From Actinoplanes sp. NBC_00393 (GTDB lineage: Bacteria; Actinomycetota; Actinomycetes; Mycobacteriales; Micromonosporaceae), in NCBI RefSeq assembly GCF_036053395.1, contig NZ_CP107942.1, positions 1,578,501-1,642,500 of the forward strand: DNA of 64,000 nucleotides, written 5' to 3'. Every line of letters starts with the position of its first letter. Position 1 is the first letter of the stretch. Under the pieces are notes generated by a model. The model did not search any database and had not been told where the DNA came from. It saw only the letters and a list, made by a program, of their open reading frames with translations. This document shows, in pieces, positions 38,609 to 45,311 of this stretch. The position numbers were made by a program, and so were the translations under genes.

Positions 38609-40783
38609 GTGACGGGTCGTATCGTGGGCCGCGTGTTCGCGAAGATGCTCACAGGACATCGGCGGCGGGCCAACCTCACCCAGGAGGATCTGGCCGAGCG
38701 GACCGGTCTGAGCGTGCGCAGCATCCGGGACCTGGAGGCCGGCCGGGTGGCCCGGCCGCGCCCGTCCACTCTGAAGCTGCTGTCCGACGCGTTCGCGCTG
38801 TCGGCCGTGGAACGGGAGCGGTTCCTGGCGGCCGCGCATCCGCCGCCGGCTGCTGGGCCGCGTCAGCTGCCGCTGGACGTGCCGGGCTTCTCCGGCCGCG
38901 ACGACGAGCTCGCCGCCCTCGACGCTCTGCTGGCGCAGTCGGCGGCGACAGTCGTGCTGGCGGCCGTCGGTGGTCTCGCCGGGGTAGGCAAGACCGCGCT
39001 GGCCGTGCACTGGGCACACCGGTGCGCCGGCCGGTTCCCCGACGGCCAGCTCTACGCCAACCTGCGCGGGTTCGATCCGGCGCCGTCGGTCGCCGACCCG
39101 GCCGAGGTGCTGCGGGGCTTCCTGGAGGCCCTCGACGTGCCGGCCGCACGCATCCCGGCCGGTACGGACGCCCGCGCCGCCCTCTACCGCGGGCTGCTCT
39201 GCGACCGGCGGATGCTCGTCGTGCTGGACAACGCCCGCGACGAGGAACAGGTGCTGCCCCTGCTGCCCGGCGCCGGCGCCAGCGGGGTGCTGGTGACCAG
39301 CCGGGACCAGCTCCCGGGGCTGATTGCGGCGGCCGGCGCGCAGCCGCTGACGCTCGGCGTGCTGACCGGGCACGAGGCGCACACGTTGCTCGCCGCGCGG
39401 GTCGGCACGACGCGGCTGGTCGCCGACCCGGAGGCGGTGACGCGGATCGTCGGCGCCACGGCCGGCCTGCCGCTGGCGCTGACCATGGTCGCCGCCCGGA
39501 TCGCCGTGCACCCGGACTTCCCGCTCGCCGCGTTCGCCGACGACCTGGGCGTCACGGCTGATCTGCAGCGGGTGTTCTCCTGGTCGTACCGAGCGCTTGC
39601 GCCGCCGACGGCCCGGCTGTTCCGGGCGCTCGGGTCGCATCCGGGTCCCGACGTGACCGCGCCCGCGGCGGCCGCGCTCGCCGGTGAGCCGGAGGCCGAG
39701 ATCGCCCCGCGGCTGACCGAGCTGGCCCGGCTGCATCTGCTCATCGAACACCGGCCGGGCCGTTTCCTGCTGCACGATCTGGTCCGGGACTACGCCGCCG
39801 CGATCGCCGATCCGGAACCGTCGCGGTACGAGCGGCTGTACCGGCACTACCTCACCGAGGCAGGCGCCGCCGCGGTCGCCTACCAGCCGCAGTGGGTGGT
39901 CCCGATCCCGCGCCCGCAGCACTTGCCGTCCACCGAGCAGGCCCGCGCCTACTTCGACGCCGAGCATCAGGTGCTCGCCGCCGTCGTGCGCCAGGCCGCC
40001 GAGCGCTGCGCCGCCGGCTACACGTGGCAGCTGGCCTGGGCCCTGGCGGCGTGGTACGCCCCGAGCGGCCGCTGGGCAGCGCACGAGGTGCTGCAACGGC
40101 TCGCCCTGGAGGTGTCCCGGGCCACCGGCGACGACGCCGGGGCGGCGACCGCCAGCCGATTGCTCGCCCGCGCCGAGATCCGCCGCAACCGACTGCCCGA
40201 TGCCGAGCGGCACCTGCGGGACGCCCACGACCTGTACGGCCGGCTGGCCGATCCGGGTGGGCAGGCGCAGGTCCTGCACAACCTCACCGAGGTGCTGCAG
40301 ATGTCCGGCCGCTCCGCCGAGGCCATCGAGGCAGCCTTCGAGGCGGTCCGGTTGCGCCGCGAGACCGGTGACCTCGACGGCGAGGCCCGCTCCCTCAACG
40401 CTCTCGGCTGGCTGCACGCGCTGGCCGGGGAGTTCGACGAGGCGGTCGCCTGCTGCTCGGCGGCGCTGGCGGTGCAACGCACCCGCGGCGACCGCAACGG
40501 GCAGGCGGCCACGCTGGACAGCCTGGCCATCGCGTACGACGGTCTGGGCCACAACGAGGAGGCGACGGCCGCTGCCGAGGAGGCGATCGGGCTGTTCCGG
40601 GCTTCCGGGGACCGCTACCACGAGGCCGAGACGCTGAGCCGGCTGGGCGACATCAGGATGGGCGCCGGGGACCGGGCGGCCGCCGTCGAGGCGTGGCGCG
40701 CCGCGCTGCTGATCTTCGACGACCTCGAGGTGCCCGCCGCGGACGACCTGCGGCGGCGGCTCAGTCCCGGTTCGCCGCGGTGA
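38609..40783 (+). CDS. STAND-type regulator: XRE helix-turn-helix, NB-ARC ATPase, TPR
   Basis: A 724-residue regulator. An XRE helix-turn-helix (about 12-65, LTQEDLAERTGLSVRSIRDLEAG) is followed by an NB-ARC ATPase with Walker A GLAGVGKTA (122-130) and Walker B MLVVLDN. C-terminal tetratricopeptide repeats (about 480-720) have ALGWLHALAGEFDEAVACC-like units. Such proteins act as ATP-dependent switches controlling secondary metabolism or development. Several GTGs are possible starts (38609, 38624, 38633); I keep the longest. Its end overlaps the convergent fahA by 23 bp. Confidence 0.9.
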   Translation: MTGRIVGRVFAKMLTGHRRRANLTQEDLAERTGLSVRSIRDLEAGRVARPRPSTLKLLSDAFALSAVERERFLAAAHPPPAAGPRQLPLDVPGFSGRDDELAALDALLAQSAATVVLAAVGGLAGVGKTALAVHWAHRCAGRFPDGQLYANLRGFDPAPSVADPAEVLRGFLEALDVPAARIPAGTDARAALYRGLLCDRRMLVVLDNARDEEQVLPLLPGAGASGVLVTSRDQLPGLIAAAGAQPLTLGVLTGHEAHTLLAARVGTTRLVADPEAVTRIVGATAGLPLALTMVAARIAVHPDFPLAAFADDLGVTADLQRVFSWSYRALAPPTARLFRALGSHPGPDVTAPAAAALAGEPEAEIAPRLTELARLHLLIEHRPGRFLLHDLVRDYAAAIADPEPSRYERLYRHYLTEAGAAAVAYQPQWVVPIPRPQHLPSTEQARAYFDAEHQVLAAVVRQAAERCAAGYTWQLAWALAAWYAPSGRWAAHEVLQRLALEVSRATGDDAGAATASRLLARAEIRRNRLPDAERHLRDAHDLYGRLADPGGQAQVLHNLTEVLQMSGRSAEAIEAAFEAVRLRRETGDLDGEARSLNALGWLHALAGEFDEAVACCSAALAVQRTRGDRNGQAATLDSLAIAYDGLGHNEEATAAAEEAIGLFRASGDRYHEAETLSRLGDIRMGAGDRAAAVEAWRAALLIFDDLEVPAADDLRRRLSPGSPR

Positions 40784-41978
40784 TCCGGCCGCGCAGTTCG
40801 CCGAGGCCGATCACGGCGCCGGCCGGGCCGGGCGCGGTCGCGGTGATCACGACCTCGTCGCCGTCCTCCAAAAACGTGCGGGTGGCGCCGTCCGGCAGTT
40901 TGACCGGCTCCTGGCCGCCCCAGGACAGCTCGATCAGGGAGCCGCGCTGGTCGGGGTCCTCGCCGCTGATGGTGCCGGAGGCGTACAGGTCGCCGGTGCG
41001 CAGCGAGGCGCCGTTGGCGGTCAGGTGGGCCAGCATCTGGGCGCCGGTCCAGTACATGCCGGCGAACTCGGGCCGGGACACGATGTGGCCGTTGAGCCGG
41101 ACCTCCAGGTGGATGTCGAAGCCCCAGGGTTCGGTCGACGCGTCGTCCAGGTAGGGCAGCAGTGGCACGGTCCGGGCCGGCGGGGTGACCCGGGCCCGGT
41201 CGAGGGCGGCCAGCGGGACGATCCACGGCGAGATCGAGGTGGCGAACGACTTGCCCAGGAACGGGCCGAGCGGCACGTACTCCCAGGCCTGGATGTCACG
41301 CGCCGACCAGTCGTTGACCAGGCACACGCCGAAGACGTGCTGGTCGAAGGCGGTCAGCTCGACGGGCCGGCCCAGCGCTGAGGGGGTGCCGACGACGAAG
41401 CCGAGTTCGGCCTCGATGTCGAGGCGCTGGGACGGCCCGAAGCTGATCTCGCCGTCCGGGCTGCGCCGCTGGCCGCACGGGCGGACCACCTCGGTGCCGG
41501 AGACGACGACGGTGCCGGCCCGGCCGTGGTATCCGATCGGCAGGTGCTTCCAGTTCGGTGTGAGCGGGTCCTGGCCGGGCCGGAACATCCGGCCCAGGTT
41601 GGTGGCGTGGTTCTCCGAGGCGTAGAAGTCGACGTAGTCGGCGACCGTGAACGGCAGATGCATCCGTGCGTCCCCGGCCGGCACGAGATGGCCGTCGAGC
41701 AGCTCCCGGTAGACCTCGTCGGTGAGCCAGGTGGTGATCCGGGCCCGCACGTCGGCCCAGGTGCGCGGCCCGGCGGCGAGCAGCGCGTCGAGCGACGGAC
41801 CGGCGACGGCAGCGGCGAGTTCCGGGGCCAGGTTGCGGATCGCCGCGGGCAGGTCGAGGATCCGGTCGCCGATCGCGACACCGACCCGCGGGTGCGGGTC
41901 GGCAGGCGTGCTGAACACCCCGTACGGCAGGGTGGCGACGCCGAACGGGTGGTCAGCGGGAACGTCGAGCCAGGTCAC
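40761..41978 (-). CDS. fahA: Fumarylacetoacetase
   Basis: Fumarylacetoacetate hydrolase of 405 residues, the last step of tyrosine degradation, giving fumarate and acetoacetate. The N-terminal SH3-like domain is followed by the FAH fold with DFYASENHATN, QRLDIEAELGFVVG, VCLVNDWSARDIQAWEYVPLGPF, WGFDIHLEV and YASGTISGEDPDQRGSLIEL; the metal-site acidic residues (Glu-Glu, Asp) are in place. The GTG at 41978 overlaps the upstream stop (GTGA) and has GGAGGA. It is the terminal gene of the operon. Confidence 0.95.
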   Translation of the reverse strand: MTWLDVPADHPFGVATLPYGVFSTPADPHPRVGVAIGDRILDLPAAIRNLAPELAAAVAGPSLDALLAAGPRTWADVRARITTWLTDEVYRELLDGHLVPAGDARMHLPFTVADYVDFYASENHATNLGRMFRPGQDPLTPNWKHLPIGYHGRAGTVVVSGTEVVRPCGQRRSPDGEISFGPSQRLDIEAELGFVVGTPSALGRPVELTAFDQHVFGVCLVNDWSARDIQAWEYVPLGPFLGKSFATSISPWIVPLAALDRARVTPPARTVPLLPYLDDASTEPWGFDIHLEVRLNGHIVSRPEFAGMYWTGAQMLAHLTANGASLRTGDLYASGTISGEDPDQRGSLIELSWGGQEPVKLPDGATRTFLEDGDEVVITATAPGPAGAVIGLGELRGRITAANRD

Positions 41979-42733
41979 CGAAGGTCCTCCGGGAGAAGTC
42001 CGAGACTGAGCAGGCCGCCGACCGGCTCGCTGATGCTGCAGGTGCCGAAACTGATGAAATGGTGCCGGACCGCCTTGGCGAGGACCTCGTCGATGCGGGC
42101 GACCGCGGCGGCGACCCGTTCGGCGTCCTGGTCGGCGAGGGCCCGCTCGATGTCGTAGCCCTGCAGGGCCTGGGCGGTGGCCAGGATGACGTTCAGGTAG
42201 CCGTGGTGCTCGAAGCCGGTGGCCGGGTCGCGGTGCCGGATCGGGTCGTGCAGGCCCGCGGTCAGCTTGAACGCGATGCCGCCGCGGACCGCCGCCCAGA
42301 GCGCGCGGGCCAGCTCCGCCTCGCTGGGGAACGCGTCCGCGCGTACCCCACCGGTCCTGATCTTCAGGCGCAAGCCGGCATCCCGCAGGGCCGCGACGCG
42401 CGTCGCGGTGATCTCCCCGCACGGCACCTCGGCGTACGTGGTGACCGCTCCCGCCTCGGTCGCGCCCACCATCTCGACGGCGACGATGTCGATCTCCGGC
42501 GCCGCCGGCAGCTCGGGCGAAGTCGTGACCAGCGAGACCGCGAGCGGGGGTCCGCCCGCCGCCGCCGCGACGAGTTCGTCCCAGCGGGCCAGGGAGCAGA
42601 TGAACGGGCCGAGCATCGGCTCCAGGGGTGACCCGCGACGCTCGCGGTGCGCCGCGACCGCTGCAGCCATCGGCACGTTGCCGGGCGGGAAGATCGCGGC
42701 GTCGTCGAACAGCCGCAGGAACAGCGGGTTCAC
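41975..42733 (-). CDS. Unknown protein between hmgA and fahA
   Basis: A 252-residue protein with no family I can name. Alternating hydrophobic strands and helices suggest a TIM-barrel-like fold, with conserved-looking LRLKIRTGG, IAFKLTAGLHDPIRHRD, GFEHHGYLNVILAT and HHFISFGTCSI segments rich in His and Lys. It is coupled by GTGA overlaps to hmgA before it and fahA after it. The pathway step between those two enzymes is maleylacetoacetate isomerase, otherwise absent from the operon, so that activity is the natural hypothesis. No thioredoxin/GST fold is visible. Confidence 0.8.
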   Translation of the reverse strand: MNPLFLRLFDDAAIFPPGNVPMAAAVAAHRERRGSPLEPMLGPFICSLARWDELVAAAAGGPPLAVSLVTTSPELPAAPEIDIVAVEMVGATEAGAVTTYAEVPCGEITATRVAALRDAGLRLKIRTGGVRADAFPSEAELARALWAAVRGGIAFKLTAGLHDPIRHRDPATGFEHHGYLNVILATAQALQGYDIERALADQDAERVAAAVARIDEVLAKAVRHHFISFGTCSISEPVGGLLSLGLLPEDLR

Positions 42734-43935
42734 GACTTCGGGCCCCGCCCGGCCCAGGTCCAGGCGTACTTCCCGTCGTCGCTGAGGCTGCCACCCTCGC
42801 CAAGGCCGAGCGGCCGGAACGTGTCGACCATGACCGCGGTCTCGTCGAACTGCTCCGCGCCCAGGCTGGCCTCGATCGCGCTCGGCTGCGGGCCGTGCGG
42901 GTAACCGCCGGGGTGCAGCGAGATCGAGCCGACATTGATCCCGGAGCCCTTGCGGGCCTCGTAGTCGCCGCCGACGTAGAACATCACCTCGTCGCTGTCG
43001 ACGTTCGAGTGGTAGTAGGGGACCGGCACCGCGAGCGGGTGGTAGTCGACCTTGCGCGGCACGAAGTTGCAGATCACGAAGTTGTTGCCCTCGAAGACCT
43101 GGTGCACCGGCGGCGGCTGGTGGATGCGGCCGGTGATCGGCTCGTAGTCGGCGATGTTGAACGCGTACGGGTACAGGCACCCGTCCCACCCGACCACGTC
43201 GAACGGGTGGTCCGGCAGGATGTGCACGCTGCCGGCGAGCCCACCCGGCCCGTCGCCGCGGTGCTTGATGTAGACCTCGACGTCCCGCTCGTTCACCTGC
43301 TGCGGCGCGCTCGGCAGCCGCAGGTCCCGCTCGCAGTACGGCGAGTGCTCGAGGAACTGCCCGTACCGGGAGAGGTAGCGCTTCGGCGGGGCGATGTGGC
43401 TGTTCGCCTCGATCGCGTAGAGCCGCAGCGGCTCGTGACCGCCCGGCACCCATCGGTGCGTGGTGGCCCGCGGGATGATCACGTAGTCGCCGATGGCCAC
43501 CTCCAGGTCACCGAAGACCGTCTCCACCACGCCCTCGCCGGCCTCGACGTAGACGCATTCGTCGCCGGTCGCGTTGCGGTACAGCGGAGACGCCGTGCCG
43601 CACACCACGTAGTTGATCCGCACGTCCGCGTTGCCCAGGACCAGCCGCCGGTCCCGGACCGCGTCGCAGGACTTCCACTCCTCGCCGGGGAACAGGTCGT
43701 GCAGCTTCAGGTGCCGGGGCAGCAGCGGCTGGTTGGACGTGGTGGCCTGGTCCGGCAGCTGCCAGATCCGGGCGCCGACCACCGCCGACGGGACGTGCCG
43801 GTGGTAGAGCAGGGAGGAGTCCGAGGAGAAGCCCTCCTCACCCATCAGCTCCTCGTAGTAGAGGCGGCCGTCGGGGTCGCGGTGCTGGGTGTGCCGCTTG
43901 GGCGGGATGTTTCCGGCCCGCTGGTAGTGCGCCAT
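42730..43935 (-). CDS. hmgA: Homogentisate 1,2-dioxygenase
   Basis: Non-haem iron ring-cleavage enzyme of 401 residues converting homogentisate to maleylacetoacetate. Motifs seen are YYEELMGEEGFSSDSSLLYHRH at the N-terminus, GDECVYVEAGEG, IPRATTHRW, PFDVVGWDGCLYPYAFNI and the iron-site region SNVDSDEVMFYVGGDY followed by SISLHPGGYPHGP. The length fits the bacterial short form. It starts 24 bp after hpd and overlaps the next gene as GTGA. Confidence 0.96.
   Translation of the reverse strand: MAHYQRAGNIPPKRHTQHRDPDGRLYYEELMGEEGFSSDSSLLYHRHVPSAVVGARIWQLPDQATTSNQPLLPRHLKLHDLFPGEEWKSCDAVRDRRLVLGNADVRINYVVCGTASPLYRNATGDECVYVEAGEGVVETVFGDLEVAIGDYVIIPRATTHRWVPGGHEPLRLYAIEANSHIAPPKRYLSRYGQFLEHSPYCERDLRLPSAPQQVNERDVEVYIKHRGDGPGGLAGSVHILPDHPFDVVGWDGCLYPYAFNIADYEPITGRIHQPPPVHQVFEGNNFVICNFVPRKVDYHPLAVPVPYYHSNVDSDEVMFYVGGDYEARKGSGINVGSISLHPGGYPHGPQPSAIEASLGAEQFDETAVMVDTFRPLGLGEGGSLSDDGKYAWTWAGRGPKS

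Positions 43936-43959: not shown

Positions 43960-45311
<1,352 letters not shown>

Follow-up and report, generated by a model that had tools for sequence, protein, structure and literature searches.

The window (the whole stretch of DNA analysed here, 64,000 nucleotides long) belongs to a genome assembled as a single 11.4-Mb contig. It carries an operon in the order hpd-hmgA-X-fahA, where X is our label for an unnamed gene, and for its product, that lies between hmgA and fahA with a GTGA overlap at either end. The genes, the two overlaps and three conserved segments of X are as follows, all on the reverse strand:

43960..45165 (-), hpd: 4-hydroxyphenylpyruvate dioxygenase, 401 aa; TIGR01263 at 423.5 bits (cut-off 277); start and stop read from the sequence
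42730..43935 (-), hmgA: homogentisate 1,2-dioxygenase, actinobacterial type, 401 aa; HgmA_C, HgmA_N and Cupin_2 above Pfam cut-offs
42730..42733 (-), GTGA overlap of the hmgA stop and the X start
41975..42733 (-), X: 252 aa, GTG start; candidate for a maleylacetoacetate cis-trans isomerase independent of glutathione; member of a conserved family with no Pfam, NCBIfam or PDB match
42347..42364 (-), segment KIRTGG of X: invariant K124, R126, G128 and G129
42236..42268 (-), segment KLTAGLHDPIR of X (K156-R166): invariant K156, T158 and H162
42029..42052 (-), segment SFGTCSIS of X: invariant C232
41975..41978 (-), GTGA overlap of the X stop and the fahA start
40761..41978 (-), fahA: fumarylacetoacetase, 405 aa, GTG start; TIGR01266 at 450 bits (cut-off 375), scanned with the longer open reading frame that contains fahA

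A first-pass annotation, made from the letters of the DNA without database searches, had placed an unnamed gene wedged between hmgA and fahA through GTGA overlaps, and the sequence bears this out (42733-42730 and 41978-41975). Its naming of the neighbours as hpd, hmgA and fahA is likewise confirmed by TIGR01263, TIGR01266 and the Pfam models HgmA_C and HgmA_N, all over their cut-offs, and the two segments that it picked out as conserved-looking, KLTAGLHDPIRHRD and FEHHGYLN, both fall in conserved stretches of the X family. The spacing from hpd to hmgA is 24 bp. The window HmgA (42730-43935) passes its Pfam cut-offs and scores just 53 bits with the curated model TIGR01015, against a cut-off of 510; by these scores it is a separate, second, actinobacterial type of HmgA, which the curated model would leave unnamed.

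X itself matches no family in Pfam or NCBIfam at E ≤ 1 and no PDB sequence at E ≤ 10. Its sequence has no GST or maiA match at E ≤ 1 in Pfam and NCBIfam; proteins of the X kind are about 250–300 residues long, compared with the 211 positions of the GST-zeta model TIGR01262. With X as the query, 326 proteins were found at E ≤ 1e-3 among 8000 candidates scored, and a profile of distant members found 5892 at E ≤ 1e-3 among 8000 candidates scored. The best 120 of each search were listed. Organism names among the matches listed are actinobacterial, the closest named homologues being from Actinoplanes, and protein names, where given, are ‘hypothetical’ or ‘uncharacterized’, the exceptions seen being four automatic assignments as ‘Transaldolase’ or ‘HpcH/HpaI aldolase’.

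Two distant kinships of X were considered and set aside. Weak Pfam matches to CbiZ occur in 9 of the 62 members of alignment A1 (best E 0.002), and the two inspected closely were below cut-off and spanned 42 and 44 residues; CbiZ kinship was rejected. Deoxyribose-phosphate aldolase (DERA) appeared as one weak match, with the X profile A2 (5c2x, E = 0.055), in an alignment that puts two DERA lysines opposite K124 and K156 of X. The other three X profiles (A1, A3 and A4), however, did not recover DERA, and hhalign of X profiles with sets of 28 and 47 DERA sequences returned probabilities under 1%. Permuted controls, 100 of each kind, reached the real hhalign score in 7 column-permuted and 33 block-permuted cases for A2, 4 and 8 for A4, and 25 and 20 for A1. 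Homology of X to DERA or to class I aldolases is not claimed, since it appears with one profile only and neither hhalign nor the permuted controls support it. For the TIM-barrel-like pattern that the first-pass annotation saw in X, the profile comparisons likewise gave no significant result.

The link between X and fahA is close. Among the 80 best of 553 confirmed X loci, which were those named and are hence biased to near relatives, 75 have fahA 3′ of X, on the same strand and no more than 250 bp away. The hmgA gene is directly upstream of X in 40 of these 80 and nearby in divergent orientation in 26; the stretches fetched for the other 14 showed no hmgA. Some of the 14 may carry canonical HmgA, to which the window query responds poorly, and some of the loci stop at contig ends. 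Five named loci have X without a nearby fahA (L039, L046, L083, L089 and L100), and fahA is found elsewhere in all five genomes; two of these genomes (G301 and G302) have a second X that adjoins fahA. At L039 (2884-7595) an intact X is divergent from genes for an HpaB-like monooxygenase, a flavin reductase, a LigB-type dioxygenase and an aldehyde dehydrogenase. This context was set aside as functional evidence, those genes being on the opposite strand to X.

The first-pass annotation had suggested looking for co-occurrence of X with hmgA and fahA in actinobacterial genomes that lack GST-zeta. This was checked in 298 Actinomycetota genomes, drawn evenly and at least 95% complete, the same set serving for every gene. 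X was found in 20 of them, fahA in 50 (E ≤ 1e-40), HmgA of the actinobacterial type in 53 (E ≤ 1e-30; 31 of these at E ≤ 1e-90 by our own count) and HmgA of the canonical type in 27 (over cut-off). The GST-zeta isomerase model TIGR01262 was over its cut-off in 0/298 genomes, with weaker matches (E ≤ 1e-5) in 43. All 20 X genomes have fahA, which adjoins X on the same strand every time with 5–265 bp between the matched parts, and all 20 have HmgA, 12 having the actinobacterial type (E ≤ 1e-90) and 8 the canonical type (over cut-off). Because X accompanies both types of HmgA, it tracks FahA and the intermediate, not a particular dioxygenase. By a hand tally, fahA and HmgA occur together in 49 genomes (24 with the actinobacterial type, 25 with the canonical), leaving out the fiftieth fahA genome, G147, where the HmgA match is weak. 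X is thus in 20/49 genomes with fahA and HmgA versus 0/249 of the others (Fisher p = 4e-18, uncorrected for kinship). Nine genomes have a good HmgA and no fahA at E ≤ 1e-40, and X is in none of them.

The 29 of the 49 pathway genomes without X comprise 16 of a single genus (f4 g8), which is probably Streptomyces, and 13 others. In all 16 (L106-L121) the HmgA that accompanies fahA is canonical, the two genes lie far apart or on separate contigs, and X and an over-cut-off GST-zeta are both absent. Since named Streptomyces (L034-L036) carry X while the f4 g8 genomes lack it, X would be patchy within Streptomyces; two genomes that share a genus, G178 and G044, also differ in its presence. At L122 and L133 hmgA and fahA stand side by side with no X. 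A search for missed copies in the X-less loci (L106-L135), with a deeper profile and all filters off over about 4 kb around fahA, gave a best open reading frame match of E 0.27. A universal role for X in the pathway was therefore rejected: with 29/49 pathway genomes lacking it, it is not required everywhere, and it would be one of several solutions to the isomerase step. One X genome, G217, has its X-fahA pair in one place and hmgA elsewhere, with a GST-fold gene (L215:4504-5082) lying two genes downstream of the latter; this GST-fold gene is closest to the SspA and maiA models, below their cut-offs (maiA 80 bits versus a cut-off of 171).

Conserved residues were read from an alignment of X with 360 proteins from three listings (the best 120 of each), one of these proteins being X's own record and three being fragments under 200 aa. 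In the first two listings, K124, R126, G128, G129, K156, T158, H162, H177, G178, N181, R223, G230 and C232 are identical in 240/240 proteins. The third listing holds 120 relatives of the host genome's own paralogue of X (L003:6640-7482), with organism names, among the matches listed, of Actinoplanes or Paractinoplanes. In this sister clade T158 is replaced by Ala, H162 by Arg and C232 by Ala, Val, Ser or Thr in 120/120 listed, and K156 by Arg in 58/120, while E87, E102, K124, R126, G128, G129, R166, H177, G178, N181, R223, G230 and P237 are kept in 120/120. Because K156, T158, H162 and C232 are lost together on an otherwise conserved scaffold, this Lys/Thr/His/Cys group is the likely catalytic set of X. 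The retention of most conserved residues in all 120 listed relatives led us to reject the idea that the sister clade consists of pseudogenes. In the tree the sister clade stands beside the fahA-linked, Cys-bearing copies of L010 and L012, which are from another genus of the same family. The paralogue itself (at about 7.92 Mb of the host contig, G000:C1) has TPR and PQQ-repeat genes as neighbours; the 14 kb fetched around it contain no hpd, hmgA or fahA.

Both the host genome and G301 have a sister-clade copy in addition to a Cys-bearing X. In G301 (L145/L154) it is the Cys-less, sister-clade copy that adjoins fahA, and the Cys-bearing X adjoins hmgA on a different contig. C232 is present in 79 of the 80 best named loci, the exception being L100 of G302; there the Cys-less copy keeps K156, T158 and H162, its loss of the cysteine being independent of the sister clade, and a Cys-bearing X adjoins fahA. 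Two genomes of distant lineages have degenerate fahA-linked copies: G050 (L020) has lost K124, H162 and C232, and G167 (L022) has lost K124, K156, T158, H162 and C232. The search of the 298 genomes found no second copy of X in either. These two copies count against the catalytic reading of the Lys/Thr/His/Cys group.

The first-pass annotation had placed a non-GST isomerase in the maleylacetoacetate slot of the operon. That placement is strongly supported by the phylum-wide co-occurrence, the adjacency and the conserved Lys/Thr/His/Cys set; the reaction itself we infer. With fair confidence, then, we propose that X is the maleylacetoacetate isomerase of the operon, a non-GST enzyme that would work without glutathione or mycothiol. 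As the candidate for this step, X would take maleylacetoacetate, the product of HmgA, to fumarylacetoacetate, which FahA would then use. In GST-zeta enzymes glutathione takes part in the cis-trans chemistry, and the mechanism suggested for X is modelled on its role, with an internal cysteine in its place. The Cys232 thiolate would attack the cis double bond with the help of His162 and Lys156, and Lys124 and Arg126 might hold the carboxylate or activate the C4 ketone; the resulting single bond would rotate and the cysteine depart to leave the trans product. We consider the chances of such a cysteine mechanism about evenly balanced. A Schiff base between a lysine and the ketone is possible, and would rest on the DERA resemblance that failed its controls.

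The first-pass annotation had left two options for the isomerase, thiol-independent or mycothiol-using, and the genomes favour the former and disfavour the latter. The case for a mycothiol requirement, or for one of another small thiol as in the DinB-type maleylpyruvate isomerase of Corynebacterium, starts from MshC, which exceeds its cut-off in 8 of the 20 genomes with X, with an MshC-like gene at about 380–430 bits in six more (G076, G126, G167, G179, G184 and G194); a mycothiol-dependent maleylpyruvate isomerase is moreover described for related bacteria in excerpts of PMC3937715. Against this, the remaining six (G039, G050, G104, G217, G226 and G273) have nothing above about 315 bits with the MshC model, a score up to which we read the matches as cysteinyl-tRNA synthetase-like, and five of these six, all except G050, have the residue set of X intact. 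The family also has an invariant cysteine of its own, and the DinB-family model MDMPI_N (PF11716) has no match in X (E ≤ 1) nor among 62 members of alignment A1 or 20 of A2 (E ≤ 10). With no recognisable MshC in 6/20 of its genomes, X is probably independent of mycothiol, and we hold a thiol-requiring X to be quite unlikely.

The first-pass annotation also named GST-zeta and DinB-type isomerases encoded elsewhere in the host genome as rivals for the step. GST-zeta has no match there at E ≤ 1e-5; DinB-type proteins are represented, with 20 MDMPI_N matches alongside MshC, and a second, mycothiol-dependent route may exist in this genome. These matches speak for another reading, in which X serves the pathway as an enzyme or helper but has some other task, such as removal of an off-pathway intermediate or partnership with FahA, the isomerisation being spontaneous, thiol-driven or carried out elsewhere. 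The pathway genomes without X fit that reading too, as does the conserved Cys-less sister clade, one copy of which adjoins fahA. The near-total adjacency to fahA, the invariant Lys/Thr/His/Cys set and the lack of any GST-zeta over cut-off in the sample speak against it, however, and to us it is improbable. Least likely of all, and in our view very doubtful, is that FahA or another hydrolase cuts maleylacetoacetate to acetoacetate and maleate and that X then isomerises maleate to fumarate: gene context cannot separate the two step orders, and excerpts of PMC4457819 cite a maleylacetoacetate hydrolase giving maleic acid for some Bacillus and describe a genome with an hpd-hmgB-hmgA operon and no isomerase gene, but in the window X is flanked by hmgA and fahA, in most of the best 80 loci it sits upstream of fahA, and the window FahA is over the fumarylacetoacetase cut-off.

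Read as a maleylacetoacetate isomerase, X can be compared with several known systems. It would share with GST-zeta (MaiA) the pathway slot and the reaction, with its invariant internal cysteine in the place of bound glutathione; the linkage of X to hmgA and fahA is one that GST-zeta genes often, though not always, have, and the likeness would be one of function, not of membership. In actinobacteria that lack glutathione, the mycothiol-dependent maleylpyruvate isomerase (MDMPI, DinB family) likewise converts a ring-cleavage product from cis to trans. It differs in that X has no MDMPI_N match and occurs also in genomes without recognisable MshC, so that X is not confined to mycothiol producers. 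Cysteine attack on a cis alkene with no external cofactor is the chemistry proposed for maleate cis-trans isomerase, a member of the Asp/Glu racemase superfamily, as it is for X. X and the members of A1 and A2 have no Pfam match to this superfamily.

The reaction is already known; it is the protein family that is new to it. In a broader form, to which we give an even chance, the proposal is that a widespread family outside Pfam and NCBIfam is the glutathione-independent maleylacetoacetate isomerase of actinobacteria, with a built-in cysteine, possibly activation of the ketone by a lysine, no small-molecule thiol and an origin independent of GST-zeta, and that the Cys-less sister clade keeps the scaffold for another job. 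In bacteria without glutathione the breakdown of tyrosine and homogentisate has one step missing, and the X family, if the proposal is true, would fill it for the actinobacteria. It would also put a name on many proteins now called ‘hypothetical’ (the 5892 of 8000 candidates scored, E ≤ 1e-3) and provide a cis-trans isomerase that needs no cofactor and whose residue set is ready for mutagenesis. Older work by Crawford and by Hagedorn and Chapman is said to have dealt with glutathione-independent gentisate and homogentisate pathways. Among the open-licence PMC papers listed by literature searches, none reports such an isomerase gene in its title or abstract opening, subscription papers being mostly outside this scope. 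For the Bacillus with the hpd-hmgB-hmgA operon, excerpts of PMC4457819 state that no maleylacetoacetate isomerase gene is identifiable and that what becomes of maleylacetoacetate calls for further study.

At its downstream end the operon meets a convergent neighbour (window 38609-40783), whose 3′ end overlaps the end of fahA. Its product is a TPR regulator-like protein, with distant matches to the HaaT and AfsR models that fall under their cut-offs.
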